DNA of 64,000 nt from Candidatus Jettenia sp. Lineage in GTDB: Bacteria > Planctomycetota > Brocadiia > Brocadiales > Brocadiaceae. Positions 3-54,746 of the stretch are shown here, piece by piece. The translations under genes were made by a program, and so were the position numbers. Below the pieces are notes generated by a model, which was not told the origin of the DNA, did not search any database, and worked only from the letters and a program-made list of their open reading frames with translations. The number at the start of each line of letters is the position of its first letter. The stretch's first letter is position 1. The stretch is taken from the NCBI GenBank assembly GCA_021650895.1, contig CP091278.1:711659-775658 (forward strand), given 5' to 3'.

Positions 3-1208
3 GTGTTTAGTGAAACATTATCACCTAAATGGAATCATAAAAATAATGACGGAGAATTAATTGATGATACAAGTCGCCATGGAGGTGATAAAGTGAAGTC
101 GAAAACTACTTATGAAGAAGGAATGTTCCGTGCTTTTCGTTTTTGCAATGATGCATTGAGCACTGGCGGTCGTTTGGTTGTTGTTTTTGCCCACAAAAAA
201 CCAGATGCTTGGGAGACGTTAGCTTCAGCAATTATTCGTGCAGGATTTATTGTAGATGGTAGCTGGCCAATTCAAACCGAACGTATAGCTCGTTCTCGGG
301 CTCATGGATCCGCAGCCCTCTCTTCCTCCGTTTGGCTTGTTTGCAAAAAGCGTCCAATTACAACCCGTTCTGGATGGGATAATCAGGTACTCGAAGAGAT
401 GCGACAGAACATAAAGGAACGCCTCCGTGAATACTGGGATGCTGGTATCCGTGGACCGGATTTTGTATGGGCTGCAACTGGCCCGGCACTTGAGGCCTAC
501 AGCAAACACCCCATAGTAAAGAAGGCCAATGAACCTGGAATATTGACGGTAAATGAATTCCTTAATCACGTCCGCCGGATTGTTGTGGATTTTGTTGTAG
601 GCCGTGTCCTTTCTCATGGAAAAGAAGGAGATGCAGAATTGGCCACCGCTGACCGTTTGGATGAACCGACAGCGTATTACTTACTTCATCGTAATGATTT
701 CGGACTGGAAGAGGCGCCAGCGGGGGCATGTATCCTCTATGCAATTTCATGCGGTATTTCTGACAAAGAGCTCGCCGATACATGGAATCTCATTTCCTTC
801 ACAAAAGGGAAATCCACGGATGACAGTGATGAAGAGGAGATAGATGTGGATGCTGAGGCTGACGAAATTGAGAAGGATTCCGGTAGCAAGGTGAAGCTCA
901 AGACCTGGGCACAGAGGAAGAGTCGTTCTCTCGGGTATGAAACATCTGGGGGAAAACCCATTCCACTCATTGATCGTGTCCACCGCCTTATGCATCTCTG
1001 GAAAGAGGGAGATTTGCATAAGGTTGATGCGTATCTTGATGATAATGGATTGAGGCGCCATGAGTTGTTTAAACGGCTTCTTCAGTCACTTATTGAACTT
1101 TCTCCGCATGGAAGTGAAGAACGCTCGCTTCTGGAGAGCATAAGCAATCATATTCAGGCCAAAGGTGCTGTGGCACAGAAGAGATTGCCTTTACCAGGCG
1201 AAGAATAA
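3..1208 (+). CDS. DUF1156-type adenine-specific DNA methyltransferase, C-terminal part (5' truncated by window edge)
   Basis: The reading frame is open from the window edge, so the GTG at 3 is probably internal and the methyltransferase N-terminus with its catalytic motif lies outside. Visible near residues 40-115 is the end of the Rossmann-type methylase fold: an EEGMFRAFRFCNDALSTGG helix followed by a hydrophobic strand RLVVVFAHK and a later SSSVWLVCKKRP strand, as in COG1743/DUF1156 proteins. The rest (about residues 120-401) is the helical C-terminal region with an acidic low-complexity stretch (DDSDEEEIDVDAEADEIE). Known for the family: predicted N6-adenine methylases that often neighbour DUF499 ATPases in defence islands. 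Here a DUF499 gene follows on the same strand, which supports the call. The exact substrate cannot be read from this fragment. Confidence 0.75.
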   Translation: MFSETLSPKWNHKNNDGELIDDTSRHGGDKVKSKTTYEEGMFRAFRFCNDALSTGGRLVVVFAHKKPDAWETLASAIIRAGFIVDGSWPIQTERIARSRAHGSAALSSSVWLVCKKRPITTRSGWDNQVLEEMRQNIKERLREYWDAGIRGPDFVWAATGPALEAYSKHPIVKKANEPGILTVNEFLNHVRRIVVDFVVGRVLSHGKEGDAELATADRLDEPTAYYLLHRNDFGLEEAPAGACILYAISCGISDKELADTWNLISFTKGKSTDDSDEEEIDVDAEADEIEKDSGSKVKLKTWAQRKSRSLGYETSGGKPIPLIDRVHRLMHLWKEGDLHKVDAYLDDNGLRRHELFKRLLQSLIELSPHGSEERSLLESISNHIQAKGAVAQKRLPLPGEE

Positions 1209-34261: not shown

Positions 34262-35368
34262 TTAGAAATTATACCCTATGGTACTCAATATGGTAGCATC
34301 GTTATTTTTTACCCCTTCTGCACTAGGATCACTATCATATTGGTTGATCCAGCTAATGTTCCAGGATATATGTTTATTCAATCTTTGCCTTAATCCTACA
34401 TCAGATTCTAATCGCCATTGTATAAGATTATCTACTGCAGGTATAAAATCTACTTTCGCATACATGAAAGTTGAATCAAAAATTTGCCAATCTAAATAAT
34501 TTCCAATTCTCAAACCAGGACTTGTTCGTACCATACTGTCTTGAAATCTCTCATAGGTATATGACGGACCTATTTCAGACTTATACTTCAAATTTTCCCT
34601 TTCAATAAACCGATAGCCCATACCTGATGATGTAATAGACCTGAGACTTAACTTCTCGATCTCATCATGCTCTATACTCTCCTGGTGAAAGGAATACAAT
34701 CTTTCTTTATGCTTACGCTCATACTTAAAAGCTCCGTGTTGTTCGTCAGCACTCTTCGTCCCGGCAGTTGTCTCAAAAAGAAGAAGGCTATTGAAATAAA
34801 AATTATCTTTCATTCTTTCCAGAGAAAAATTTGTCTTTACGCTCGTAGTTAATGCGTCTCTATTTCCCCTTTGAAGGGTAAGACCGGCATCAATATTCCC
34901 CTTCCACGGTTTACCTTGTTGAAGGGTATCTTGCCGCTGAGATGCTGCATAAACATCTGGAGTATCGTGAGTACTCGCCTGCACAGATGGTTCTACTCCA
35001 TCCGTAAAAAATGACCGACTGGCTATCATCTCCTTTGGGTAAATTGATGATACAGTATCTGCCGTCGTGAGGCTTATATCTTTAGCAGAAAGACTACCCT
35101 CAGTCTTAAGGATAGTAAATTTCCTCCGGGTTTCATCGTGGCTTACGATAATAACCTCTTTATCTCTTGAAATAAGGCTGATAACACGCCACTGGATAAA
35201 ACTAATAGCGCCTCCACCTTCGTCTCTGATCGAGAGACACTCCTCATCAGCATCTACTACTTCTCCTTTTATTATATCACCATCAATAGTTTTTATCTCT
35301 TCGGTAAATGCCTTATTTATAAGACAGAAATACATCAGGAAAAAAATTAAAAATCTTAATTTAGGCAT
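34262..35368 (-). CDS. DUF481-family outer-membrane protein
   Basis: 368 residues from the ATG at 35368, chosen because AAAGGAAT lies just upstream; the ORF overlaps the stop of the channel gene by 8 bases, so the two are coupled. A signal peptide ends near residue 23 (FCLINKAFTEE). A small N-terminal domain reading TIDGDIIKGEVVDADEECLSI is followed by the DUF481 beta-barrel (about residues 150-368) with KGNIDAGLTLQRGNRD and a terminal aromatic residue (GYNF). These salt-induced YdiY-type proteins are outer-membrane barrels. Confidence 0.82.
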   Translation of the reverse strand: MPKLRFLIFFLMYFCLINKAFTEEIKTIDGDIIKGEVVDADEECLSIRDEGGGAISFIQWRVISLISRDKEVIIVSHDETRRKFTILKTEGSLSAKDISLTTADTVSSIYPKEMIASRSFFTDGVEPSVQASTHDTPDVYAASQRQDTLQQGKPWKGNIDAGLTLQRGNRDALTTSVKTNFSLERMKDNFYFNSLLLFETTAGTKSADEQHGAFKYERKHKERLYSFHQESIEHDEIEKLSLRSITSSGMGYRFIERENLKYKSEIGPSYTYERFQDSMVRTSPGLRIGNYLDWQIFDSTFMYAKVDFIPAVDNLIQWRLESDVGLRQRLNKHISWNISWINQYDSDPSAEGVKNNDATILSTIGYNF

Positions 35369-38300
35369 TATTCCTTTTGTAAACAATATTCTCAATATCT
35401 GCTGTCACGATCTCCTTTTTATCTTTGTCAGGAAAAGGTGCTATTGAACGGATATGAATATCATGCTGTGGGAAGGCAATCTCAATGTTATTCTGTTTAA
35501 ACACCTTATCAATAGCAAAATTAAGTTCACTCATGGTAAACCAGCGTTTCCCTGGATCATCTGCCCAAAAATACAATTCGAATCTGAGCGCATTCTCACC
35601 GAACTCAGCAAACCGTACGACGGGTTCCGGATATACCTTTACATTTGGATTCTGCTTAGCAATTTCCAATAAACACTGCTTTACAAGACTGGTATCAGAA
35701 CCATATGCGACTCCGACCTTCACACATCCCCTCATCAGTGGTGTTGGAAGTGTCCAATTTGTTATTCTATTTTCGATAAACTTTGCATTCGGTACAGTTA
35801 TCGTAACCCCATCAGGGGTTGTCAGTGTAGTGCTTCTTGCATTGATACTCTCAATAGTTCCTCCTGTTCCGTCATCCAGAATAACGACATCCCCTACACG
35901 CATAGGCCGCTCAAAAAGCAGGATAATTCCACTGACAAAATTGCTGATGATATTCTGCATTCCAAAGCCAATACCAATACCAAATGCACCTGCAAAAATT
36001 GTCAGACTTTTTAATGGGATGCCGGCCAGGTTGAGACCAATAAGCGCAGCAATACCTACAATAACATATCGTATGAGAGAAGAGAATGTTTGCCTCGCCC
36101 CGCGTTCTAAACGGAGTTTATAAAATACCCGTTCCTCCAGCAATTTTTTTATATACCGTGCAATGAAAAAGAACACGAGGAATATGGCGAATGCAACAAT
36201 AATCTTTATCGGCGTAGTATATTTACCATCTTCAAAAACAAAACGATAGCTTAATCCGCTCCTGAGAGTTCCTAGTGCTGCACCTATTTGGCCGAATATT
36301 TTTTGAACCAGATAGGGAGCTGCAGGAGAGCCTAATGCATCATAAAAGGTCCTCACCCATACCCGAATAATAATGATTGCTGCAATAATAGAAATAGCAT
36401 ACTTGCACGAAACAGAATATACCGATGTAATGGCATGAAATTTCTTCTCCTCAGAAGTGCCCTTTTGAATCATTTTCTTTTTGAGACGCACATCTCTTAT
36501 ATAATTCAAACGGTGCTGTACGTACTTCCACACCAAAAATACAATAAATGCAACAATAAAACTTTTTATACATGTTTTTAAGAGTGCATAGGTTAGTACC
36601 GAATACCCAAGGCTTCTTATTGCAAACAACGAAATAACAAACGTAATAAAGATTGGGTATATTATCACGATAACACGATGAATGAATTTCCCTAATTTAC
36701 CTTCTCCACTCGGTAATAGTTTGAGAATAAAGGTTTTCTGCGTAGCAAGCCACAACAGGAGAATCAACATGCCTAACCGGTAAACAAACCAGAGTAATTT
36801 AATTGCATCGTTTCTGTATCCGAAAACTGTTAATACCGTAATTGCAGATAGAGAGATCAAAGAGAATAAAAGCATAATATTTAATGAACGGTACAGGTGT
36901 GTGGGGGAAACATACGCCAGGGAGGTAACCAGTTTTTTATCCCCCTTTTCAGGGCCGAAAGACTCAATGAGAAAACCCTTCAGTATCTTATATACTGCAA
37001 AATAGGTTAGGATATATACGGTTGCTATTACCCAGGGGACTCTGATATGAAAGAGAGAAGTCAGAGAAAAAGAAAGAATAGCAATCCAAAGGGCGCCCAT
37101 ACTCTTTTTCATGATAATGAGAAGGCTGGGAAGAAGCCTTGATTTATAGTAGGATACATCAGTAACCTTATAGGATTCTTCGATTTTAGAGGTAATCTCA
37201 TCTCCGGCAGCCAAAACATCACTTCCATTCTCTGCATGAGTGGCCTCATAGGATTCTTCGATTTTAGAGGTGCACCACCTATACAGAAATCTTTTTGAAA
37301 AATAAAGCCCTGCAAGTATTACCAATAGTCCACACAACCGTATCCAAAAACTGATAGTTTTCTTTTCCGTATTGAGGTATAGAATGAAATTTTTAACAGC
37401 GTTTTGAGCCGTATTGTAAAACGTATCGAACAAGAGGTAACTCTGTATCAAATCCTTATATATTGTTTTAAATGTTTCTGTAGAAATGTTACTTTCAATC
37501 CTTGCCCAAATATTTGCTGCCCTCATGGTAATTAATTTTTCTCTCGTTCTATTCGACAGGGCAAGCGCATTATTCTTAATCTCCAATCGTTCATGGAGTC
37601 TATCTAATATTGCGGATAGAAGTTTTGTTAGTTCCTCATGAATTTCTATTTTTTGATGCGCATACTCCTTAATTTGACGCGCTAATTCTTTGTCCTCAAA
37701 AACAGCGATCTCTTTTTCAATTTTTGATATTTCTTCTTGTGCATTCTTCAGATTATCTAAAAACAGTTTTTCCTCTTGTTTTACCGATGTAATAAGGCTT
37801 TCAATCACCGTTATTGCATTTGAAAACCGCTGTATGTCTGATTCTGTTTTTCTTAAGAATTCATCTATTACACTTGCTGTCATCCTTCGTTCTAAGAAAA
37901 ATTCAATATCCGCTTCCAATTCTTTATATTCAGTGGCATCTTTATATCTCTGTTCACCCTCCGTTATGAGCTCGTCTTTCTTTCTGGCTAAAAGTCCGGT
38001 TTGCTTGTGAAGTTCAGCTTCTAATTCTAGTACCCTTTTCTTTTCCGGAGAAGTTGTTACCATTTGCTTTTGTGCAACCTCTTCGGCCTTTCTGATTGCT
38101 TCCTGCAGTGCCCTTTCAGCCTCTGCTCTTCTCATCTCTGCAATCTTTTGATTTACCTCTTCGGCTTTTTTAGCAGCTTCTAACTCGGCCTGCTTCTTTT
38201 TTAGTTCTTCGCCCCTTAACTTTTCCTCCAAACGGTTTGCTTTTTCAGCTAAAAAGGCTATGTTGAGTTCTGCATTTTTTAATACCTGTATTATTTGATC

Positions 38301-39131
38301 ATAACGAACTTTAGCCGTTTCAAGCCTCGTCTTGAATATAGCAATCCATTGTGCACCTATTGCCTTCCTCCACAATATAATACTGTCAATTTTCTCTTGT
38401 ATTTTTTTAAGGAGTTCCTCATCGCTTATATCTTTTTTTAGTAATTCCAAATCTTTAATAAGATCTTTCTCTCTGTCAGAGACCCTGACTTTGACATCCT
38501 CCAGTTCGTGAGTAAAAAAAGATACTATCGTATCCCTCTCCTTGAGACTTGCATGAATCGTAGCAATGTAACCCTTTGCAATATCTAATTCTTTTTTCAC
38601 TACAAGGGCTTGATCAAAAGGTGTTACAGCAATTATCTCTTCAAGCTTTGCTATCGTCTCTAATAATGCAACTTGATCTGTATAAGCCTTTAACTGATTT
38701 TGAAGGGCTGTAATCTGATCTTCATATGTCTCTATTTGTTCATCGCTTACGTTTAATTTTTCTTTAATAATATCTATTTCTTTATCGAGTAGTTGTAAAA
38801 ACTTCGGATTTTCTCCCTCTGTCTGATAGGTTTTTTTATCCTGCTGTAATCTCTTAAGATAAACCATCGTTGTATCTCTATCTCTTTGTAAATCTGAGAT
38901 TAAAGACTCATTCTCTTCCATAGATTTATCAACAATAGCTTTTATCTCCTCTGCTTTTAATCTTGCCTTTTCAACATCTTCTGATTCTACCTTTATACCA
39001 ATTTCAGCAGACTTTACTTCATCTGATTTTTTCTCTGGAGTTTGAGCCAATACACCAAGAGAGCTGCCTACTATTAATAAGAAACATATGCTAAAATACC
39101 TTGCTAATGGGAATGTATTTTTTTTCGACAT
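35361..39131 (-). CDS. large MscS/MscK-type mechanosensitive channel with coiled-coil periplasmic region
   Basis: About 1,256 residues from the ATG at 39131 (AAAGG upstream). A signal peptide (about 1-28) is followed by a long periplasmic coiled-coil region (about 30-580, Glu/Lys heptads), about ten membrane helices (from about 605) and the C-terminal MscS module with the pore helix LNLAGIPLKSLTIFAGAFGIGIGFGMQNIISNFVSGIILLFERPMRVGDVV near residue 1040, then a beta domain and the cytosolic vestibule. This layout matches MscK/KefA. It opens on osmotic down-shock. An in-frame 26-codon duplication carrying SKIEESY lies at 37170-37271. It is in an operon with the TetR gene upstream and the DUF481 gene downstream. 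Confidence 0.93.
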   Translation of the reverse strand: MSKKNTFPLARYFSICFLLIVGSSLGVLAQTPEKKSDEVKSAEIGIKVESEDVEKARLKAEEIKAIVDKSMEENESLISDLQRDRDTTMVYLKRLQQDKKTYQTEGENPKFLQLLDKEIDIIKEKLNVSDEQIETYEDQITALQNQLKAYTDQVALLETIAKLEEIIAVTPFDQALVVKKELDIAKGYIATIHASLKERDTIVSFFTHELEDVKVRVSDREKDLIKDLELLKKDISDEELLKKIQEKIDSIILWRKAIGAQWIAIFKTRLETAKVRYDQIIQVLKNAELNIAFLAEKANRLEEKLRGEELKKKQAELEAAKKAEEVNQKIAEMRRAEAERALQEAIRKAEEVAQKQMVTTSPEKKRVLELEAELHKQTGLLARKKDELITEGEQRYKDATEYKELEADIEFFLERRMTASVIDEFLRKTESDIQRFSNAITVIESLITSVKQEEKLFLDNLKNAQEEISKIEKEIAVFEDKELARQIKEYAHQKIEIHEELTKLLSAILDRLHERLEIKNNALALSNRTREKLITMRAANIWARIESNISTETFKTIYKDLIQSYLLFDTFYNTAQNAVKNFILYLNTEKKTISFWIRLCGLLVILAGLYFSKRFLYRWCTSKIEESYEATHAENGSDVLAAGDEITSKIEESYKVTDVSYYKSRLLPSLLIIMKKSMGALWIAILSFSLTSLFHIRVPWVIATVYILTYFAVYKILKGFLIESFGPEKGDKKLVTSLAYVSPTHLYRSLNIMLLFSLISLSAITVLTVFGYRNDAIKLLWFVYRLGMLILLLWLATQKTFILKLLPSGEGKLGKFIHRVIVIIYPIFITFVISLFAIRSLGYSVLTYALLKTCIKSFIVAFIVFLVWKYVQHRLNYIRDVRLKKKMIQKGTSEEKKFHAITSVYSVSCKYAISIIAAIIIIRVWVRTFYDALGSPAAPYLVQKIFGQIGAALGTLRSGLSYRFVFEDGKYTTPIKIIVAFAIFLVFFFIARYIKKLLEERVFYKLRLERGARQTFSSLIRYVIVGIAALIGLNLAGIPLKSLTIFAGAFGIGIGFGMQNIISNFVSGIILLFERPMRVGDVVILDDGTGGTIESINARSTTLTTPDGVTITVPNAKFIENRITNWTLPTPLMRGCVKVGVAYGSDTSLVKQCLLEIAKQNPNVKVYPEPVVRFAEFGENALRFELYFWADDPGKRWFTMSELNFAIDKVFKQNNIEIAFPQHDIHIRSIAPFPDKDKKEIVTADIENIVYKRNNA

Positions 39132-39146
39132 ATTGAGACCTTTCAA

Positions 39147-39737
39147 TTAAACACCTATCCCCTGTTTATAAACATTCCATAGATCCGAATGCATCTTTTG
39201 GGGTACAAAATTAAAATTTTTATACGACCATATCGTCACCGTAGATTGTATAAGACCCATAAAGACCATGGCGGATATTTTCGGATTAATATCTTTTTTT
39301 ATCAACCCTAACTCGATACTACTCAAAAGGAGCTTCTCTATCTTTCGTAAATATTTCTGGATAAGTTGTAAAATCTTTTTACGAATAATCGGATCACTAA
39401 ACTGCATAGCCCCCATAATAACAACGAAAGATGTCTTACGGCGGTTTTTTGCTAAAATAAGCTGAGCAAGTAAAATATTTTTCAGATTTTGAACCGGATC
39501 TTTCTCTACCATTGCACTATTTATGGATTCCATAAGGGTTTTTTCAATATCATCTATCAACAAACTCAATATATCTCTTTTGCTCTTAAAATGCCGGTAG
39601 ATGGCGCCTTTTGTAGTCCCTATTTCCTCTGCTATTTCACTGATAGTAACATGTTCAATTCCTTTTGAAGAAATAATGTTGCGAATTATATCTATAATCT
39701 GTTGTCTTCTAATCTCTGTAGATTTTCTAACCTGCAT
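39147..39737 (-). CDS. TetR-family transcriptional regulator
   Basis: A 196-residue regulator. The N-terminal helix-turn-helix domain spans about residues 8-55: RRQQIIDIIRNIISSKGIEHVTISEIAEEIGTTKGAIYRHFKSKRDIL. The C-terminal ligand-binding part is helical with FVVIMGAMQFSDPIIRKKILQLIQKYLRK. AGGAGG lies just before the ATG. It ends 15 bases before the channel gene and probably controls that operon. It is one candidate for the factor that binds the GTAAAC-N4-GTTTAC sites further on, but its own upstream region does not contain such a site. Confidence 0.9.
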   Translation of the reverse strand: MQVRKSTEIRRQQIIDIIRNIISSKGIEHVTISEIAEEIGTTKGAIYRHFKSKRDILSLLIDDIEKTLMESINSAMVEKDPVQNLKNILLAQLILAKNRRKTSFVVIMGAMQFSDPIIRKKILQLIQKYLRKIEKLLLSSIELGLIKKDINPKISAMVFMGLIQSTVTIWSYKNFNFVPQKMHSDLWNVYKQGIGV

Positions 39738-41379: not shown

Positions 41380-42273
41380 TTATTGCTTCGTCTTCACCCT
41401 AATATCCTTAATCTCTTCTTCCATCTTTGGTGGCTTTAATGATTCTTGAGTTCCGGTAGTAGCCTTTAATGCCTCTAATTTCCTTGCCCCTTTTTCATCC
41501 ATCGCAGTGGCAAACCAATAGAGGAACGTGACGAAGAAACTACCACCCACGATATTCCCAAGGGTAACTGCAACGAGATTCCACCCAAACATCTTACCCC
41601 ATGAAATCATCGCAGGATCGTGAGGCAGTAAATTCGCAATCGTCAAAAACGTCATATTCGCTACACTGTGTTCCATGCCTGTAGTAACAAAACAAAACAA
41701 AACCCACCAACACATCATTATCTTGGCGCTGTCACTGGTAACTCTAAAGCAACTCCATATACCTAAACATACAAGCCAGTTACAAAAAATACCCCTGAAA
41801 AACAATTCCCACCACGGCGCATTGCACTTATAGGTAGCAACCTTGTTCAAAAATGTGTGCCATGGATCAGGGGCAAACACACCAGACATATAAATTAAAA
41901 GCGCAAAAATCAGTGACCCACCCAGGTTACCTACATATGTCCAAAACCAGCCCAACATTGAATCACTAAGTGATACAGTACCTCTAAAAGTACCTTTCAG
42001 TATCAGTAAATTATACCCGGTAAACAACTCAGCTCCGCCAATAACTACTAATATCAAAGCGATAGGAAATACTGCACCTCCAACTATTTTACCGATTCCG
42101 GGATTTAACGCTGCAACAGGAGCAGCCGCAACAACCATAAGAAGGACACCAAATCCAATAAAAAAACCAGCTACTACAGAAAGCGTCAAGAAACCTACCA
42201 GACTATGCTTCAATGCAGTAGATTTCTTGAGAGACATTGCCGCAATTGCATCTACATTTCCAGTATATAACAT
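41380..42273 (-). CDS. FocA/NirC-family nitrite (formate) channel
   Basis: A 297-residue FNT channel with six membrane helices. Family motifs include KHSLVGFLTLSVVAGFFIGFGVLL, GGAELFTGYNLLILKG (helix 2-3), NWLVCLGIWSCF, TGMEHSVANMTFL with the pore His, and NLVAVTLGNIVGGSFFVTFLYW. The C-terminal tail is charged. AGAGGAGA lies 8 bases before the ATG. In anammox bacteria such channels are considered routes of nitrite uptake, which fits the P-II and nxrA genes nearby. The upstream region has operator-like repeats inside two predicted promoters. Confidence 0.93.
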   Translation of the reverse strand: MLYTGNVDAIAAMSLKKSTALKHSLVGFLTLSVVAGFFIGFGVLLMVVAAAPVAALNPGIGKIVGGAVFPIALILVVIGGAELFTGYNLLILKGTFRGTVSLSDSMLGWFWTYVGNLGGSLIFALLIYMSGVFAPDPWHTFLNKVATYKCNAPWWELFFRGIFCNWLVCLGIWSCFRVTSDSAKIMMCWWVLFCFVTTGMEHSVANMTFLTIANLLPHDPAMISWGKMFGWNLVAVTLGNIVGGSFFVTFLYWFATAMDEKGARKLEALKATTGTQESLKPPKMEEEIKDIRVKTKQ

Positions 42274-42465
42274 TACTTGTTCTCCTCTAAAATGTTGTAT
42301 ACAGCATCTTAAAACAACACGAATTATCTCCTCCCCTTCTAAAGCTCAATACAACACAACTACTTATTCTCCTGTAATACTCTTTTTGATACACCCCTCC
42401 TTTCTTGATCACTCCTCTTTAAACATCCGTACATATTCTGTGTTCATTCTATACAAACTTTATCT

Positions 42466-42588
42466 AGTAACTATTCGTTTACTTAACAAAACATATGCCA
42501 ACGACACTTTGCAGCAAAAATGCTGTTCATATTTTTATATAAGCAATTTCAAATCAACACACTATATAAACGATAGTTTATTTGTCAT
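42466..42588 (-). promoter_or_regulatory. focA upstream region: two predicted promoters each overlapped by a GTAAAC-N4-GTTTAC-type site
   Basis: On the minus strand, ATGACA (42583-42588) and TATAGT (42561-42566) are 16 bases apart, and the spacer is almost filled by ATAAACTATCGTTTAT (42566-42581). Downstream, TTGTTA (42484-42489) and TAGATA (42461-42466) are 17 bases apart with a degenerate site GTAAACGAATAGTTAC in the spacer (42467-42482). The first is 5/6 for both boxes; the second is weak. Placement in the spacer suggests repression. The sites resemble those at nxrA, the antiporter and P-II genes. Confidence 0.5.
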
Positions 42589-43255
42589 ATGGATATCGGG
42601 GTGCTGTTAGAATCATGCAGGTCTTTCATTATGCAATAATAGTTTCACTGTCTGAATTTCATTTCCATAATAACCTATACGGTAAACGAGTGTTTATATA
42701 TAATACGCTCTGGGTATAAGAGACCCTATGGTTACTGACAGATATAACTTCAGAGAAGACCTCATAAAACCGGTCTTTCACGCATTTTGAGAAATACTCT
42801 GCGCCATTTTGGCACATATGCAAGATGGTTTCACATCGCCTGCACATCTCTCAGCATAACAAAAGGCAAAAAAGTTGATTATTCCGTAATTGAACAAATG
42901 GAAGAATTAGATAAGGCTATGGATCATGTGGTCGCCCTTTAGAAACTGTTCCAGAGCAACTTTCCAAAGAATGGCTGTAGGATCATACAGAGATGACCGG
43001 GATGATTTGTTTTTCCGGTTAATAAAAAGCTGAATATCTTATTGCCGTGATTAAGGGATTGAGTAATAGAGGGGCATTCCATACAAAAACAAACAAGATT
43101 TTTGCTTCTTCAGATGATTGAGGTTTTTTTGTTTCAGGGTATGATACAAGACCGATTTTTATATCACAAAATCGATCACAGGATAGAAGTTTCCTGTTTA
43201 GTAATTAAACGAATCAGAAGATTCATGTAACATTCAGATCTTACTGAACACTAGC
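42589..43255. other. intergenic region, possible gene remnant
   Basis: About 670 bases without a convincing gene. On the plus strand a short frame ending at 42952 reads KKVDYSVIEQMEELDKAMDHVVAL with no start, which has coding character and may be the relic of a decayed gene. The minus-strand frame at 42659-42847 has no ribosome-binding site. A TTGATTCGTTT/AACGAATCAG-type inverted pair near 43195-43215 is weak. Confidence 0.3.
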
Positions 43256-43990
43256 TTATAAGCCAATAAATATACTAATTATAGAATGAATAATAATAAT
43301 CGGTGTTAAAAAGTCCAGGACAGAAGCCCCAATGTACAAATCATATTCCGTAATAAATCCGAACATATTGGTTGCACAAAGAAATCGTATAAAAAAGAAT
43401 GCATAGAGTGTTAGGGTTATAGTTTTATTCAAAAATAGATATTTGCTATAGATATAAACGAAAATAAAAACAGAACCTAACCGAATTATACAGTTCAAAA
43501 CATTTAAGATAAACAGAATACGGGATTCCTCTTCATCTTCTAAAAATATCTCTATGCCTACAGATAAAAAATATTTTGAGAAAAAATACAAACCAAAACC
43601 AATAATACTGAGGGAAAAAAGAGTTTTTGCCCAATCTATCAATTGTCTGATAGGCTGTACATCCTGATTCTTCAACTCAGATGAATTATCAGTCATTCCT
43701 CTTACTACTTTTTTCACAGAATCAGATGTAATGAAAATATATGCAAAGGCAAAAACGATAGCCATTACCACATCACCACACATATCAGGTAAATTTGGCA
43801 CATGTACTTCGTACCTATGTTCATGATTTCCTGACTGAAGAAAGTCAAAATAGATCAGACCATGCATAATATTCCCTATTGCGAACCGTAAATTAACACC
43901 GATAAATATTAATAACGCGCCTATTTTTAAGTCCTTTATCGCATGTTTTGTTAATTTATTTTGACTCACGCAATTCGCTATACTAAACAT
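43256..43990 (-). CDS. uncharacterised six-helix membrane protein
   Basis: A 244-residue protein with about six membrane helices (roughly residues 24-46, 70-90, 124-148, 160-182, 190-210 and 222-244). Between helices 1 and 2 is a hydrophilic loop HGLIYFDFLQSGNHEHRYEVHVPNLPDMCGD, rich in His and acidic residues. No family is recognised. It diverges from the P-II gene across a 524-base region that contains the P-II promoter. Confidence 0.55.
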   Translation of the reverse strand: MFSIANCVSQNKLTKHAIKDLKIGALLIFIGVNLRFAIGNIMHGLIYFDFLQSGNHEHRYEVHVPNLPDMCGDVVMAIVFAFAYIFITSDSVKKVVRGMTDNSSELKNQDVQPIRQLIDWAKTLFSLSIIGFGLYFFSKYFLSVGIEIFLEDEEESRILFILNVLNCIIRLGSVFIFVYIYSKYLFLNKTITLTLYAFFFIRFLCATNMFGFITEYDLYIGASVLDFLTPIIIIHSIISIFIGL

Positions 43991-44288
43991 CGATTTTCCC
44001 CCTTATTTAATAATCATGAATAATTTTAGGGTATTACACGTCTGATAATTCCGTCAGTATAAAAAACTGCACCTCTTAATTGGTTTCAATTTGTAAGGAG
44101 CTTTTCCAATTTCATTACCACTAAATTATACATTAATTTTTAATATTTTCAACCATAATGAATATTTTATTATTTATAAATATTTATGGATATGTTTTAT
44201 ATGTGCAAAATCGCCTGTTGATACAATCGAAAATTTACCAACCCCTTCTCCGTCTTTATTAATTTTAACTGTACATGGTCTCTTTTTT

Positions 44289-44363
44289 GTAAACTATCAT
44301 TTACTTGACATAGTACAAACAACGCAGTATAATACCATGCATATTATGTAAACGATAGTTTAC
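44289..44363 (+). promoter_or_regulatory. sigma70 promoter of the P-II gene flanked by two operator-like inverted repeats
   Basis: TTGACA at 44305-44310 and TATAAT at 44328-44333, 17 bases apart, are both perfect consensus boxes. GTAAACTATCATTTAC (44289-44304) touches the -35 box and GTAAACGATAGTTTAC (44348-44363) lies about 8 bases beyond the predicted transcription start (near 44340). An operator on each side of a perfect promoter suggests strong repression, perhaps with looping. The leader to the P-II ATG is about 175 bases. Confidence 0.72.
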
Positions 44364-44400
44364 TATTACAACAAGAAAAATATATTATTGAAGAACGTCT

Positions 44401-44502
44401 ATGAAGAAAAAGCTGCTTAGGAAAAGATTAACCACCAAATTCCGAAGGGAAGTTGGAGTAATAGTCTTCATCATACGAAAAAAAAAACAGTACTCGGTAT
44501 AG
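44401..44502 (+). other. possible 33-residue leader ORF upstream of the P-II gene
   Basis: An ATG at 44401 opens a 33-codon frame encoding a very basic peptide (MKKKLLRKRLTTKFRREVG...), whose TAG stop at 44500-44502 overlaps the GGGAGGAA ribosome-binding site of the P-II gene. There is no clear ribosome-binding site in front of it. It lies inside the mRNA from the promoter above, so it could affect P-II translation, or it could be chance. Confidence 0.25.
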
Positions 44503-44514
44503 GGAGGAATTTTT

Positions 44515-44853
44515 ATGAAAAAGATAGAAGCAATCGTTAGAACGGAAATGTTTGATAGTATCAAGAGTGCGTTATCAGAATTGGGCTATCCGGGAATGAC
44601 GGTAACAATGGTAAAAGGACACGGGAATCAAAAAGGTATCGTTGAAACGTGGCGTGGAAAAATGTTTCGGATTGACCTCCTATCCAAGATTAAAATCGAA
44701 ATAACGGTCAAAGATACTGATGTTGAAAATATTGTAAACACGATTATCCAAAAATCCCAAACCGGGAATATGGGTGATGGAAAGATATTTATTTCCCATA
44801 TAGAAAATGTTTATCGTGTTCGAACCAGGGAGTCAGGTGAAATTGCAATCTAA
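44515..44853 (+). CDS. P-II-family nitrogen regulatory protein lacking the T-loop tyrosines
   Basis: A 112-residue P-II protein with GMTVTMVKGHGNQKG (residues 28-41), the ATP-binding block TGNMGDGKIF (83-92) and RVRTRESGEIAI at the C-terminus (Arg101, Arg103). In the T-loop, the positions of Tyr46 and the uridylylated Tyr51 of E. coli GlnB are Trp46 and Phe51 (ETWRGKMFRID), so uridylylation at Tyr51 cannot occur. GGGAGGAA is 5-12 bases upstream. The location near focA, not next to an ammonium transporter, suggests control of a nitrite-related partner, which is inference. Confidence 0.9.
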   Translation: MKKIEAIVRTEMFDSIKSALSELGYPGMTVTMVKGHGNQKGIVETWRGKMFRIDLLSKIKIEITVKDTDVENIVNTIIQKSQTGNMGDGKIFISHIENVYRVRTRESGEIAI

Positions 44854-44967
44854 ACCGAGCAGTATAGCCTTATTTTGGTTGTGTTAACAGGGCAGGAATT
44901 TGATTCGTTCGTAAGATATCGTTTCTCCCTTACACCATAGGGAAAGACTTCTCATCTTTATAGGCAC

Positions 44968-45985: not shown

Positions 45986-48562
45986 TTAATCAATAGTAAC
46001 TTTTTCCATCTCTTTTCTTCCCACAATACTATGAGCACTTTTCCAATAAATATCTTTTTTCCTGAGTAAGGATATTCTCAAAAAAGAAGGGCATATCGTG
46101 GAAGTAAGTACTATTACCATAATAATAGAGGAAAATACAACATCATCCAGTATTCCTATATCCCTGCTTATTCCGGCCAAAATCAAGGTACCTTCTAACT
46201 TCATCGCCATGCCTATACCTATAGCCAGACGATTTATACCTTTCTCGATTGGACAAACACTGCAAAATAGCTTTCCCAGAATAGCAGCTCCTGTTATCGC
46301 AAGGCCGAGAAGGATTGCATGTATATCCAAAAAACTTTTCAAGTCTACCTGAGCCCCAACCCGCACAAAAAGTATCGGTACAAGAATCATATAATATGGC
46401 CGGATAATTCGCTCTATATTGCTATACTCTTTATCATCCGAATCTTTGAACTTTACATTTCGCAGAAGTAAACCTGCAGCAAAAGCACCTATTACACCGT
46501 GAAGTCCAATTGACCCGGAAATAAAAGCAAACAAAAGAGATAAAGTTACAACAATCGATATTTTTAAACCTTCGGCAAATTTACTCGTTAGGAAGTTTCC
46601 AAAACTTTCTCCATATTTTAAAACCGATATCAAAACAATAGCGAGAAAGGAAAATGCAATAACAACGGTAACTAATACACCCAATACAGAAACTTCACCT
46701 CTCACTGCAATTCCGCTTACGATACCGAAGGTCAAAATTACAATAATTTCCGTAAGGATCGTTGCTCCCGTTATCACCCTCCCTTCCAAAGTATTTATCG
46801 CCTTTAGTTCACTCAGAGTTGCAAATAATAAGCCTGTACTTGTATTACAAATAATAATCGCCAAAATTAAATTTGCACCAAAGGTAGCACCGGGAAGAAG
46901 AAAATATCCAACAACAAGACTCAAACCCGCTGGAGCTATTATACCACCAATACTTACAAGAAAAGAGGTGGCACCAACCCTTAATAACGCCTTGAGGTCT
47001 GTATGAAGGCCTGCGGTTAAAAGAAGCAATAAAGTCCCAAAATAGGAGACCACTTTCAAAAATGGCATTGTCTTGAGAAAATCAAAAAAATTCCATTCAG
47101 TAAAAAAATAAATATTACCCAATACCATCCCTATGATTAAATTTCCTACTACCTCGGGAAGCTTCACCATATTTGCTATCCACCCACCAATTTTGGCAGC
47201 TATAAGGGTAATAGCAACTGCAAGGATGATACTGAGGGTTTGATTTGTATGCCATATGCTCCATGTCGATTTTACCTCTTCCTTCCCTTTTATTATCTCA
47301 CTAACTTGTTTTTCTTTCTTATACTCAATTGCGTTCCCGGGTAATGATACAGATTTTCCCCCTTCTGCTGTATTCGAAGACTTACTCATAGCGGTTGGTG
47401 GAACTTTCTCTTCAGAGATGCCTTGTAAGCGTTTATCCTCCATAGCAGATGTTTGTGTCCTGTTTTCTTCTTTAACCAAGGACTCCCCTTTGTTAACAGG
47501 AGGGGTAGAAAACACATGGGGAGGTATAACAGAAAGAGTATCATTCTCTTCGTCTAAGATAATCTTTCTCTCCTGGATACCTTTTTGTTCATTTTCATTA
47601 TCAAGAGATTTTATCTCTGAATTTTTACTACTTTCAGTATTAAATGCAGAAAGAACTTCCTTCTCATGAACAGTTGTTGCAGGAAGTTCTGGCGGAGTTG
47701 AAGAACTTCCCCTCTCTTTCATATCCTGAGAAATTTCAGTCCCCGTAGTATTTGATTGGAGATCAATGAGCGATTTTTCTTCTGGTAGGGAAGAAGGTTG
47801 TTTCTCATCAGGAATAATCTTCTGCTGTTCATTATCCCCAGCAGATGTCTGTGTTCTTTCTTCTATAGTTATAGATAATTGCGTTCCATGCTCCTCGAGA
47901 GAAGAAGATTGTGTCCCTAAGATTGACGCACCTGAATATTCTTGTATTGATGTATTTTGAGAGACATCTTTTTCTCTGCCATTTAAAGAAGCCTCTTTTT
48001 CTGTAACAGTCGACTGACTATTTTCATGAATAGATAGTTCTTCTTGAACATTTTTTTCTTCTTTTATCGCAGGCGTAGAGCAATCATCTTTTTCGATAAG
48101 TACCTGATGAGGCTCTATTTTAACAACAGTAGTTTGTGTTCCTTTTTCCTCTTTCAACTGAGATTGTCCGTCTTCAACAGATGTATTAGAATGTAGCTGT
48201 GAAGACATACTTGAAGGTGTATCCTTTTCCTCAGCTTCTCCTGATGTTTTCTTTTTCGTAATAGTTGTTTGATATTTCTCATCAGGAAGTTTCTTTCGAA
48301 GATACTCTTTCTTCAGAATCTGCAAGAGTTCCTCCGAAAAAATACTTCCTGCTTCAACAAAAGACTCCGTCCTTTTTTTATTATCGGGAGGAATTTGCTG
48401 AGAATCCTTTGTTGTTACTTCAGCTTTTCCTTGCGGTAACGATATTCCGTAGAAATAATACAGAGAAATCAACAGTAGAATAAAGGTTTGTTTTGATTTT
48501 AAGGTATGCATAAATATAAGAAAAATCAAAAGTTTTTTGAGGTTTTTTAACAACATTGACAA
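45986..48562 (-). CDS. CPA2-type monovalent cation/proton antiporter with a long Ser/Thr/Glu-rich N-terminal extension
   Basis: 858 residues. The C-terminal 420 residues (about 435-858) are a Na+/H+-exchanger-type CPA2 domain with about 12 helices, including LPEVVGNLIIGMVLGNIYFF, NTSTGLLFATLSELKAI and GSIGLHGVIGAFAAGLLLRNVKF. Upstream lies a signal or anchor helix (about 18-45) and about 390 residues of low-complexity, probably extracytoplasmic, sequence rich in Glu, Ser, Thr, Lys and Gln. This extension contains three imperfect repeats with EE(K/R/N)-(G/R)TQT(T/S). The TTG start at 48562 is only about 14 bases from the predicted transcription start, so the ATG at 48556 or 48511 may be the real one. 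Likely role: ion homeostasis across the cytoplasmic or anammoxosome membrane. Confidence 0.87.
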   Translation of the reverse strand: MSMLLKNLKKLLIFLIFMHTLKSKQTFILLLISLYYFYGISLPQGKAEVTTKDSQQIPPDNKKRTESFVEAGSIFSEELLQILKKEYLRKKLPDEKYQTTITKKKTSGEAEEKDTPSSMSSQLHSNTSVEDGQSQLKEEKGTQTTVVKIEPHQVLIEKDDCSTPAIKEEKNVQEELSIHENSQSTVTEKEASLNGREKDVSQNTSIQEYSGASILGTQSSSLEEHGTQLSITIEERTQTSAGDNEQQKIIPDEKQPSSLPEEKSLIDLQSNTTGTEISQDMKERGSSSTPPELPATTVHEKEVLSAFNTESSKNSEIKSLDNENEQKGIQERKIILDEENDTLSVIPPHVFSTPPVNKGESLVKEENRTQTSAMEDKRLQGISEEKVPPTAMSKSSNTAEGGKSVSLPGNAIEYKKEKQVSEIIKGKEEVKSTWSIWHTNQTLSIILAVAITLIAAKIGGWIANMVKLPEVVGNLIIGMVLGNIYFFTEWNFFDFLKTMPFLKVVSYFGTLLLLLTAGLHTDLKALLRVGATSFLVSIGGIIAPAGLSLVVGYFLLPGATFGANLILAIIICNTSTGLLFATLSELKAINTLEGRVITGATILTEIIVILTFGIVSGIAVRGEVSVLGVLVTVVIAFSFLAIVLISVLKYGESFGNFLTSKFAEGLKISIVVTLSLLFAFISGSIGLHGVIGAFAAGLLLRNVKFKDSDDKEYSNIERIIRPYYMILVPILFVRVGAQVDLKSFLDIHAILLGLAITGAAILGKLFCSVCPIEKGINRLAIGIGMAMKLEGTLILAGISRDIGILDDVVFSSIIMVIVLTSTICPSFLRISLLRKKDIYWKSAHSIVGRKEMEKVTID

Positions 48563-48582: not shown

Positions 48583-48632
48583 AGTATAATTCCGTTTACA
48601 TATTTGTCAAGATAATGTAAATATTTGTTTAC
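48583..48632 (-). promoter_or_regulatory. antiporter promoter with GTAAAC-N4-type operator
   Basis: On the minus strand, TTGACA (48605-48610) and TATACT (48583-48588) are 16 bases apart. GTAAACAAATATTTAC (48617-48632) lies 6 bases upstream of the -35 box, and an additional GTAAAC half-site is inside the spacer. The same order and 6-base gap occur at the nxrA promoter. Predicted transcription start near 48576. Confidence 0.65.
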
Positions 48633-51011: not shown

Positions 51012-51422
51012 CTACGCTTTTTCCACCTTTATTAATTCTCCGTTCAGGTATTTTTTCATGAAATCGTTCTCGTTGCCAGCGGTATACCCTGTCTTTGCCG
51101 GATCCCACAATCCCTTACCTCCAATACCACCATCCTCCGCCTTAGTGATCTTTACCAAGGTCTCCTTTGGAGTAGTATTAATGCCATGATTATCGGCTTC
51201 ATAGCCAAAAACAAACTTCATACTCGTTTTTGACTTATGGAATAAGCTATCCAATTGGTGCATGGGCATAGACCAATTCCTGGTAATACTCTGTTGTGAT
51301 CCATAACGGAAGCTTGACTGATACCCGGTGCCTGCCGATAGTGCCCTTCCATCCGGTCTTGTCTCATGGGCCTTCACCGACCGCTCTGTTGAAATGCACG
51401 CAGAGTGCTTCATCATGGTCAC
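51012..51422 (-). pseudogene. nxrA: nitrite oxidoreductase alpha subunit, C-terminal part after frameshift
   Basis: 136 residues that complete the NxrA chain: VTMMKHSACISTERSVKAHETRPDGR, SFRYGSQQSITRNWSMPMHQLDSLFHKSK and a C-terminal KKYLNGELIKVEKA. The GTG (51420-51422) overlaps the stop of the upstream part as GTGA. There is no ribosome-binding site for an independent start. Adding one G to the GGG run at 51421-51424 gives PYGVTMMKHS in one frame, with a total of about 1,148 residues. Confidence 0.85.
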
Positions 51423-54400
51423 CCATACGGATATGCCGGATTGTACTTACACCGTAACATCAGACGCGCTACCTTATAGAACGGGTCGCTTGGCTTCCAT
51501 CCCTCATACGGCCTGTCCGCAGGGTTGGCATCTACATACACATAATCACCATCATTGATACCTAAATCCTTCGCAGCTTCCGGATTCATATGGATTTGAT
51601 GTTCTCCCACCCCTGGCATTCTCTTGTCCATCCTGTAGGGGTCACCAAAGTTGTTATTCCAGATAAAGTTCCAGTCCGTTACTGCCCACTGGGAGTGTAC
51701 CGTATGGCGGGATTTCGGTGTTACACAATAGAACTTATATCCCTTCTCCCACAAGAAGTTCTTCGTTTTCTTTGTCTCAGCCCATGACTTCTTGATGTTC
51801 CTTACCGTTCTCTCATCCCAATGTTCTGCATTCTCCGGTATTCCATAATCATCCGGACGGATATACGGATTGGTGCTGACGATGACATTCGGAAGATACT
51901 GGGTTGCCTCCGGTCCTTCACGATGTACGATAAAGTTCTCTCCGTACTCAATAATCTCCGATTCATCATTGTACCCCTGTAACCTTCCTGTCGGTGTATA
52001 GAAGGGAAGGCTCTCATGTACCTGTTCCCAGAATGGATGTCTCGGATAGGTACGGTAGAGCAACAAGGCAACTCCTGGCTCGCCATATTTCCCATTAATG
52101 ATGTCAACAAAACTGTACCCCTTTGTCGTCGTACTGCCATCCAATAATCTCTGGATATAGACCTCTGGTCTTCCCTCAAGGGCAAACTTCCAAACATCAT
52201 GGAATCTCATATCTCTGAGGAGTTCTCCGAGCTTGGCTCCCATACCCGCAAGGATCATCACATCATCCTTAGAGTCGTTCACCGGTTTTATGCCACCCTT
52301 CCATATCTGAATGAAGGGATTGGAGCATGAGGTGGTAATCTCATGGGTCTCAAACTCTGCCCAGGAGTTCGCCGGAAATGCAAAATCGGCATATTCAATA
52401 GAACCGGTCATCTCTATATCGTTCGACATGATTTGTTCGATATTGGGATTGACATTCTTCAGCATCTGGTACACATGCTTGGCATTGTTTACCAGGTTTA
52501 CGTTCGTAAACCACATGATCTTCGTTGGTGTCGGCATGTGGGTTTTACCCGTAAAGCATTTCCGTCCATACTTTGGGGTATTCACAATTAACGGCCTGTC
52601 ATTGTGATTCCAGTACGCCACTTCTTCATCATAGGCACGTCCCTTTACCTTGAGTTCCGTTGCAGGTGCATCGGGATCAAGGTTCGGGTTAAATACATCC
52701 TCTGCTACCCATCCATAGAATCCGGGACCACTCCACTTTGATGCCTGGAAATTGCCTGCCTTATAGTTACCCGACCAGGTATGAGAGCCTGAACCAGGAC
52801 AACCGATATTCCCTGTTAACATCAGAGGTAAATAAGTTGATCTGTTAAACAATGTTGCATGGAACCAGTGGTTAATACCCTCACCATAATGGATCGCTAC
52901 CGGCTTAATGGTTGCTATATCATGTGCCAGCCTTACGATTAACTCTTTTGGTGAATTCGTCATTTCAACGACACTATCAATATCGTAATCTTTCAGATGT
53001 ATTTTATACATCTCAAAGAGCGGCATGACCTCAATCTCTTTGCCATCTACCGTTTTCACCTTGAATATTCCATCGAGAGCCGGATCAATACCCTTTGCAA
53101 CAAGCTTATCACCAACATCATCACGGGTAATCGGTTTCGGGCTATTTGTCTTTGCATCCCATACCACAAAGTCTCCGATAATCTCCCTCTGGTCGTCATG
53201 TAAGCCGTGAATCTTATAGCTTGCCCCATGTGACATATCCTCTAGTTTATAATCCGGGAAGATATCTTTCGCCTGCAGTCTCTTCAAGGTATCTGTTCGA
53301 ACGAGTAAGGGGAAATCGGTAAACTTCTTCACATAATCTGCATCATACAGTTTCTCATCCATGAGGATCTTGGTTATCCCCAGGAACAATGCCGTATCGG
53401 TATTACACTTGATCGGTATCCAGTAATCTGCCTTTTGAGCAGATGGGCTATATTCGGGGGTAATAACAACCAGCTTCCCACCTCTCTCGAAAACCTGTGT
53501 TAACCAGTGTGCCTCAGGCATCTTATTCTCAATAAGGTTCTTTCCGGTCTGGATTACCAACTTTGAGAATCGTACATCGTTCATATCTACATCCGATGTC
53601 TGCAATCCATGGACAAACGGATGTCCGGGGGCCTGATCACCATGCCAGGTATAGTTTGACCAGTTTCTTCCGCCCAATGCCTTGTCAGGACCAACACCTC
53701 TGTTGTGACTATCGACCAGGGCAAGGGAATTGTTAAACCGGTACATCCCGTATTTACCAATAACACCCAAGAGACCCATACCACCGCGTCCCTTAAAGGT
53801 TCGTGTGCCGGCACCCTTCATCGCATCAACCATCTCTTTAGGATAGCCTTGATCCAGGAGTTTCCGTGCGCCTTCTTCTCCACTGTACTTCTTGGTAATG
53901 TGGATAATACCCTTTGCAGCATAGGTCCAGGCATCATCCCAGGAGGCCTTTAAGAGTTCATCCTGACCTCTGGCATCAAACATATACTTTGATTTATTTT
54001 CCGGTGTTAGTTCCGGGAATCCATCATCAGCCCATTGCTTCCATCCCTTTCGGATCAGAGGATACCGTAATCGATAGGGGCCGTATACCCTGCGATGGAA
54101 GGTATATCCTTTCAGGCACATCCTGGGGTTCCAGTTCCTTGTAGCCTTATTTCCATACAGGTCTGCGTAGTTCTGATGATCATAATTCTGTTCAACCCTC
54201 ATGAGTACTTCGTTTCTCACAAACGCCCTCACTCTACAGGCATGGGTATCATTGGGAGAGCAACAATAAGTGAAGGTACGATCGTACCGGTACTGTTCTC
54301 GATATACACTTTCCCATGCACGGTCTGGATAAGCATCCAGGGGGTTTCCAACTTCTACAGCGGGCTTTAATAACCTGAACGCCATTGCCTTATTGGCAAG

Positions 54401-54460
54401 GGTAAAGGTCGCACCCGTTGCGCCTGCCACCTGTAGGAAAGTCCTCCTCGTAAGTTTCAT
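51419..54460 (-). CDS. nxrA: nitrite oxidoreductase alpha subunit (NxrA), main part
   Basis: 1,013 residues of the molybdenum-bis-MGD catalytic subunit of the NarG/NXR group in anammox bacteria; it oxidises nitrite to nitrate, supplying electrons in the anammoxosome. A twin-arginine signal, KLTRRTFLQ, starts the protein. Fe-S (FS0) ligands are in FTYCCSPNDTHAC (Cys66, Cys67, Cys75) and RMCLKG (Cys115). The likely Mo ligand Asp275 is in NYTWHGDQ. Bis-MGD segments include KLVIQTGKN and a C-terminal dinucleotide-binding part. TGA at 51419-51421 cuts off the final 136 residues, which follow in the next frame. No NxrB or NxrC gene is adjacent. The promoter is at 54696-54746, with a leader of about 230 bases that includes a palindromic repeat. 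Confidence 0.93.
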   Translation of the reverse strand: MKLTRRTFLQVAGATGATFTLANKAMAFRLLKPAVEVGNPLDAYPDRAWESVYREQYRYDRTFTYCCSPNDTHACRVRAFVRNEVLMRVEQNYDHQNYADLYGNKATRNWNPRMCLKGYTFHRRVYGPYRLRYPLIRKGWKQWADDGFPELTPENKSKYMFDARGQDELLKASWDDAWTYAAKGIIHITKKYSGEEGARKLLDQGYPKEMVDAMKGAGTRTFKGRGGMGLLGVIGKYGMYRFNNSLALVDSHNRGVGPDKALGGRNWSNYTWHGDQAPGHPFVHGLQTSDVDMNDVRFSKLVIQTGKNLIENKMPEAHWLTQVFERGGKLVVITPEYSPSAQKADYWIPIKCNTDTALFLGITKILMDEKLYDADYVKKFTDFPLLVRTDTLKRLQAKDIFPDYKLEDMSHGASYKIHGLHDDQREIIGDFVVWDAKTNSPKPITRDDVGDKLVAKGIDPALDGIFKVKTVDGKEIEVMPLFEMYKIHLKDYDIDSVVEMTNSPKELIVRLAHDIATIKPVAIHYGEGINHWFHATLFNRSTYLPLMLTGNIGCPGSGSHTWSGNYKAGNFQASKWSGPGFYGWVAEDVFNPNLDPDAPATELKVKGRAYDEEVAYWNHNDRPLIVNTPKYGRKCFTGKTHMPTPTKIMWFTNVNLVNNAKHVYQMLKNVNPNIEQIMSNDIEMTGSIEYADFAFPANSWAEFETHEITTSCSNPFIQIWKGGIKPVNDSKDDVMILAGMGAKLGELLRDMRFHDVWKFALEGRPEVYIQRLLDGSTTTKGYSFVDIINGKYGEPGVALLLYRTYPRHPFWEQVHESLPFYTPTGRLQGYNDESEIIEYGENFIVHREGPEATQYLPNVIVSTNPYIRPDDYGIPENAEHWDERTVRNIKKSWAETKKTKNFLWEKGYKFYCVTPKSRHTVHSQWAVTDWNFIWNNNFGDPYRMDKRMPGVGEHQIHMNPEAAKDLGINDGDYVYVDANPADRPYEGWKPSDPFYKVARLMLRCKYNPAYPYG

Positions 54461-54695: not shown

Positions 54696-54746
54696 AGTAT
54701 ACATTTGTTTACTTAATTTGTCAATATCAAATAAACTATTGTTTAT
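54696..54746 (-). promoter_or_regulatory. nxrA promoter with GTAAAC-N4-type operator
   Basis: On the minus strand, TTGACA (54719-54724) and TATACT (54696-54701) are 17 bases apart. ATAAACAATAGTTTAT (54731-54746) lies 6 bases upstream of the -35 box, and a GTAAAC half-site lies in the spacer. This is the same architecture as the antiporter promoter. Predicted transcription start near 54689. The remaining 54747-55139 region contains TTGACT-N17-TTATGT near 54874-54902 as a possible promoter of the dehydrogenase gene, and several GTGTCA repeats near 54995-55065. Confidence 0.68.

Follow-up and report, generated by a model that had tools for sequence, protein, structure and literature searches.

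The consensus promoter of a P-II gene in the anammox bacterium Candidatus Jettenia sp. is bracketed by two copies of a short dyad, and the same dyad recurs in arrays before genes for a formate/nitrite transporter (FNT), a CPA2-type cation:proton antiporter and an NxrA-like oxidoreductase. A repressor of the TetR family, most likely the product of the gene at 39147-39737, probably acts on both P-II dyads, and its control would cover the P-II, FNT, antiporter and NxrA-like genes. Coordinates refer to the window, i.e. the complete stretch of 64,000 nucleotides that was analysed. The P-II promoter, its flanking sites and the candidate regulator are:

44289..44304: putative operator 1 of P-II, GTAAACTATCATTTAC, one mismatch from a perfect dyad, abutting the -35 box
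44305..44333, plus strand: P-II promoter TTGACA-N17-TATAAT (TTGACA 44305-44310, TATAAT 44328-44333, spacer 17)
44348..44363: putative operator 2 of P-II, GTAAACGATAGTTTAC, perfect dyad, 15 nt past the -10 box
44515..44853, plus strand: gene for a P-II protein of 112 aa (Pfam P-II 103 bits, cut-off 25; domain over residues 1-106)
39147..39737, minus strand: TetR-family regulator, candidate repressor (TetR_N 51.5 bits, cut-off 24; TetR_C_4 35.5 bits, cut-off 21)

The initial annotation had described a promoter with two perfect boxes and a 17-nt spacer, and two inverted repeats 59 nt apart (start to start), one abutting the -35 box and one just past the start; the sequence reads exactly so. The promoter follows the sigma-70-type pattern TTGACA-16..18-TATAAT and is the sole 12/12 match among 45 promoter-like sites between 38000 and 52000; its -35 box is invariant in all eight aligned P-II upstream sequences. 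The accompanying remark that a perfect consensus promoter is uncommon was overstated: TTGACAN{16,18}TATAAT has 38 matches in this genome, the reversed control one. Transcription is predicted to start near 44340, about 7 nt past the -10 box, which places operator 2 at about +9 to +24; the upstream dyad is centred near -43. By analogy, repression with induction would be the usual consequence of such operator placing. Both of the sites noted originally are real, but they are not private to P-II, as at least nine of the same kind lie in the window. With up to three mismatches allowed, the dyad pattern has 46 matches in the window compared with a shuffle mean of 30, and none of 100 shuffles reached 46. 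The proposal that the dyads are operators is very probably correct, given their conservation, their recurrence before other genes and their link to one TetR gene, and given that the bracketing of P-II is kept in another genus.

For the P-II leader, a leader peptide (a 33-codon basic ORF at 44402-44503) was considered and rejected, its ATG being gone in G001, and a search for RNA elements in the leader and the FNT upstream region (42200-44900) gave no Rfam match at the gathering score. The leader of G002 (L041, 15323-15620) is about 150 nt longer than that of the window, with an insertion past operator 2 and ahead of the start codon.

The encoded protein has a full-length P-II domain. Its T-loop carries W46 and F51; Tyr51, the residue for uridylylation of the enteric type, is absent, and F51 is also found in the four operator-bearing relatives of the T-loop comparison. 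With GlnK/AmtB gene pairs the locus thus shares a P-II family protein; it differs in F51, in the adjoining NarK or Cache/NarK genes of relatives, and in that no amtB gene lies beside the P-II gene of the window, the neighbours being genes for a 244-aa membrane protein, a 199-aa ORF, Usp and the antiporter. The membrane protein gene (43256-43990, minus strand) has no Pfam match and is divergent from P-II; its relatives adjoin TetR homologues in several loci.

Seven further sites of the dyad lie within 12 kb, in multi-site arrays before the FNT gene, the antiporter gene and the gene at 51012-54460, which we take to be NxrA-like:

41380..42273, minus strand: FNT gene (Pfam Form_Nir_trans 244 bits)
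42467..42482: weak third site of the FNT array, two mismatches
42561..42588, minus strand: promoter-like ATGACA-N16-TATAGT of FNT
42566..42581: putative operator in the spacer of the FNT promoter, ATAAACGATAGTTTAT; homologous array in G040 and G041
42682..42697: putative upstream operator of the FNT array, GTAAACGAGTGTTTAT
45986..48562, minus strand: CPA2-type cation:proton antiporter gene (Pfam Na_H_Exchanger 145 bits; NCBIfam CPA2 below cut-off)
48583..48610, minus strand: antiporter promoter TTGACA-N16-TATACT
48584..48599: putative antiporter operator overlapping the -10 box
48617..48632: putative second antiporter operator, upstream of the -35 box and spaced 33 nt from the other; same spacing in relatives
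51012..54460, minus strand: gene for an NxrA-like molybdopterin oxidoreductase, with a frame interruption near 51422; the genome has a second copy
54696..54724, minus strand: nxrA-like promoter TTGACA-N17-TATACT
54697..54712: putative nxrA operator overlapping the -10 box
54731..54746: putative second nxrA operator, upstream of the -35 box and spaced 34 nt from the other

The antiporter start is listed as TTG 48562; homologous starts in relatives suggest a Met about 17 codons further in. The interruption of the NxrA-like gene is seen relative to an intact copy in the same genome (at about 2140.8-2144.2 kb), which is 97% identical at the DNA level and carries no operator in the upstream DNA fetched; the copy in G002 is intact as well (1149 aa).

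Throughout the 3.82-Mb genome, the exact pattern RTAAACNNNNGTTTAY occurs at eight sites, four of them within 12 kb at genome positions 754224-766404 (0.3% of the genome); this clustering (4/8) is given without a p-value, as the pattern was derived from those same sites. The other four sites (374804, 2452672, 2687064, 3145657) were rejected as members of the regulon, two being coding and two lying in near-identical repeated intergenic DNA. The latter (2687064 and 3145657) are two copies of a ATAAACAATCGTTTAC dyad and perhaps belong to mobile elements. Over the whole genome, the single dyad shows no enrichment (GTWWACNNNNGTWWAC, 7 matches versus 6 for the control; RTAAACNNNNGTTTAY with one mismatch, 73 versus 65), so that the target set is small and local. 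A genome-wide regulon could not be separated from background by means of the single dyad, and a composite of promoter and operator was used instead.

In related genomes, the arrangement of the sites falls into classes. All ten type-A intergenic pairs less than 150 nt apart in 33 loci are spaced by 33-34 (six), 58 (three) or 100 nt (one). With a spacing of 33-34 (class 1), the two sites enclose the -35 box, the second one overlapping the -10 box; with a spacing of 57-59 (class 2, P-II), one site lies on either side of the promoter. A third array, with distances of about 116 and 100 nt, precedes FNT in the genome of the window (G000), G002, G040 and G041, if sites with up to two mismatches are counted. 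The P-II pair with a spacing of 57-59 and an abutting TTGACA is found in the window, G001, G002, G020, G022, G042, G041 and G039; G001 and G002, which belong to the genus of the window, have kept both operators. In five Brocadia-group genomes (genus g11), the P-II upstream DNA contains, in this order, a dyad, an abutting TTGACA, 17 nt, a -10-like hexamer and a second dyad (spacing 57-58), and the other strand of the same DNA reads TTGACA-17-TATAAT or -TATACT towards a Cache/NarK or NarK operon. Here, the Cache protein scores 43.7 for dCache_1 (cut-off 45), and the best NCBIfam match of the MFS protein is NarK with 222 bits, below the cut-off of 312. The two opposed, overlapping promoters between both P-II operators are located at L043 10509-10582, L109 14470-14543, L132 1174-1246, L170 13136-13209 and L171 12598-12671. 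No reverse promoter with at least 10 of 12 matches was detected in the P-II region of the window or in its two congeners. Operators with at most one mismatch were found within 450 nt in only four of 30 P-II loci, and sites with at most one mismatch in only five of 30 FNT loci. G040, which possesses the TetR gene, has no operator between P-II and NarK; in G011 (4.4 Mb), operators precede NarK and an antiporter-like gene, and none was found in the FNT/HPP region.

The candidate regulator has an N-terminal TetR helix-turn-helix, and its fold was predicted with a pLDDT of 83. Its gene lies 1.6 kb beyond the FNT gene; in G020, the orthologue adjoins the FNT gene and P-II is about 9 kb away. A gene for an MscS-like channel of 1261 aa comes immediately after the TetR gene (35361-39737, minus strand), and several relatives have kept this gene order. 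According to the predicted model, the closest solved structures are Bacillus FadR and SlmA (TM about 0.8 over 186-190 columns, 20-24% identity), and the best sequence matches are likewise SlmA (61 bits) and FadR (56 bits). The scores for the curated NCBIfam equivalogs are far below the cut-offs (SlmA 72 of 120 bits, FadR 69 of 200 bits); the protein is therefore neither SlmA nor FadR, and the likeness to both is one of fold. Moreover, the operators of FadR and SlmA differ from the dyad found here. The best site within 300 nt upstream of the window TetR gene has three mismatches, which argues against autoregulation; autoregulation is common in the TetR family, not obligatory. Most of its closest orthologues are also without an operator in their own promoters; several paralogues do have own-promoter sites. 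In L124, L125 and L128, TetR paralogues are divergent from GT20 genes (trehalose-phosphate synthase type), with a single GTAAACNNNNGTATAC-type operator in between.

Which signal the regulator might respond to was judged from its targets and neighbours. The initial annotation had assumed that P-II follows the nitrogen state. This assumption is not supported: with a CPA2 antiporter in the regulon, the gene for an MscS-like channel beside the regulator and trehalose-phosphate synthase genes beside its paralogues, the signal could with equal likelihood be ionic or osmotic stress. It is quite possible, if short of probable, that the operators serve ionic/osmotic or pH stress and not nitrogen control, with P-II as a passenger. 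Besides the genes just named, this alternative is favoured by L129, where SulP transporter and antiporter genes lie behind a 33-nt pair, and by Kuenenia, in which two narK genes were unresponsive to ammonium versus nitrite limitation, as stated in the available part of the transcriptome paper (PMC7438415). On the other hand, the putative targets overall are FNT, NarK, HPP, NxrA, the antiporter and P-II, and thus include a set of nitrite/nitrate genes (FNT, NarK, HPP, NxrA). The same part of that paper reports a rise of focA_2, HPP, nirC, nxrBC and nrp3/4 under nitrite limitation (PMC7438415). This transcriptome could not be tied to the operators, as the FNT/HPP region of G011 is without sites. 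Targets and neighbours taken together fit nitrite handling under ionic or nitrite stress. Note that the stress alternative bears on the signal and not on the architecture.

The assignment of the dyad to the TetR protein is based on linkage across the Brocadiaceae. We analysed 33 loci chosen solely for holding a TetR homologue, several genomes giving more than one locus. Their intergenic DNA (73 kb) contains 15 exact GTAWACNNNNGTWTAC sites and 29 with one mismatch; five control patterns gave 0 exact matches and 0-4 with one mismatch in the same DNA, and the coding DNA of these loci (426 kb) contains 1 and 14 sites, respectively. In 33 Brocadiales loci of a named-genome collection, a set that largely covers the same organisms and is not independent of the first, there were 13 exact sites and 47 with one mismatch (reversed control: 0 and 8). 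In 46 loci whose TetR homologues are distant (at most 40% identity over most of the protein), the numbers were 0 and 5, compared with 0 and 2 for the control. Counts of loci are not independent of each other, because some loci overlap or share a genome. The composite TTGACAN{5,6}GTAWMCNNNNKTATACT, i.e. a -35 box followed by an operator ending in the -10 box, has 18 matches in 15 of the 33 genomes of the family and none for the reversed control. The TetR gene is present in 25 of these genomes (E <=1e-60), and composites occur in 15 of the 25 genomes with the gene and in none of the eight counted as lacking it (p = 0.003; some of the eight are incomplete, 58-84%). Six of the 18 composites precede NxrA, four the antiporter (one of these, L190, assigned by N-terminus resemblance alone), two orf147, two Cache/NarK and one an unassigned 340-aa ORF; three lie in short loci without an assigned ORF.

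Own-promoter sites of TetR homologues provide a second line of evidence. A perfect GTWWACNNNNGTWWAC occurs in 11 of 28 upstream regions (a few of them duplicated), with 0.02 expected. In the non-duplicate sites with at most one mismatch, Gly at residue 44 goes with the half-site GTA in 15 of 16 halves and Thr with GTT in 16 of 18, the exceptions being L127 and one half in L114. In the predicted structure, residue 44 belongs to a helix (43-47) that follows helix 32-39, and would thus occupy a recognition-helix position. The protein of the window has Gly44, and the window sites are of the GTA type. This tally strongly suggests that half-site and recognition-helix residue change together between TetR paralogues; as it may reflect shared descent, it does not count as independent evidence. 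From the linkage and this co-change, both of which give indirect support, we infer that the 39147-39737 protein may bind a short palindromic operator as a dimer.

Alternatively, though this is unlikely, the dyads might serve as operators for another factor whose gene lies elsewhere, such as one of CRP/FNR or MarR type, and the TetR linkage would be incidental. This reading would be in line with the lack of autoregulation in the nearest orthologues and with the P-II upstream site near -43, which is close to the positions of class II activators. The restriction of the composites to TetR-bearing genomes, the excess of sites in TetR own promoters and the co-change of half-site and residue 44 all speak against it; in addition, an activator would hardly be expected where the -35 box is perfect and where sites cover -10 boxes or lie past the start. 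CRP/FNR half-sites are of the TGTGA or TTGAT type; those of the dyad read GTAAAC/GTATAC and differ from TGTGA of CRP. In favour of this alternative, a CRP-type regulator and its regulon have been predicted in Brocadia in one paper, as far as its available part goes (PMC8510549).

Among known systems, the dyad most resembles the site of PsrA of Pseudomonas, a TetR-family protein which, in the available part of the source, recognizes GAAACN4GTTTC and represses by means of a site over the promoter (PMC13104628). Common to both are the core AAAC-N4-GTTT, the TetR family and a promoter-overlapping site; the flanking letters (GT..AC), the pairing of sites and the targets, nitrite/nitrate and ion transport compared with fatty acids, are different. 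This comparison is one of site and description, not of protein sequence. The same source states that TetR proteins can activate or repress (PMC13104628), and it is conceivable, if quite unlikely, that the TetR protein binds the P-II sites and activates, or that the upstream site activates and the downstream site represses. The upstream site does lie where activators can touch polymerase; however, the P-II promoter already has full consensus, and in the other class one of the sites overlaps the -10 box. Finally, that the dyads are chance or selfish repeats, as the missing genome-wide enrichment might suggest, is highly implausible in view of their local clustering, their conserved positions and spacings and their absence in controls, and is contradicted by conservation across genera.

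Repression by the TetR protein thus remains the preferred reading, in which DNA binding, the sign of the control and induction are inferred from sequence. One TetR dimer would occupy the upstream operator beside the -35 box and a second one the downstream operator just past the start, and together they would deny RNA polymerase access to the strong P-II promoter; at the other promoters, the repressor would block polymerase by overlap. A ligand, which one might guess to be linked to nitrite or ionic stress, would release the repressor, and P-II would be made together with FNT, the CPA2 antiporter and the NxrA-like protein. The classical paired-operator repressors likewise act on a strong promoter that lies between two copies of the same operator; regulon, organism and regulator differ from those, and the bracketed DNA of the Brocadia-group relatives serves two opposed promoters. 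The kind of repressor is known, and the regulon appears undescribed; no paper describing it was found in the open-access literature.

A more far-reaching joint reading is speculative and rather doubtful as a whole. An anammox TetR regulon may couple NxrA, nitrite/nitrate transport, proton/cation exchange and an AmtB-free P-II protein. The 75 bp of the Brocadia group might then be a two-way switch between P-II and Cache/NarK, as polymerase could use only one of two promoters which overlap face to face between both operators at a time; Jettenia might have turned this switch into a one-way P-II promoter of full consensus. P-II would, in this case, gate NarK/FNT and not ammonium channels.

A large share of the world's fixed nitrogen is removed by anammox bacteria, which are not easy to manipulate genetically; this is why, to our knowledge, almost nothing is known about the switching of their nitrite transport and nitrite oxidation. 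With a named regulator, an operator of 16 bp and a list of targets, the question of nitrite control would become open to simple in-vitro tests, and the operator motif can be used for reading existing transcriptomes. The proposed regulon may thus serve as a testable first sketch of the control of nitrite handling in anammox bacteria.
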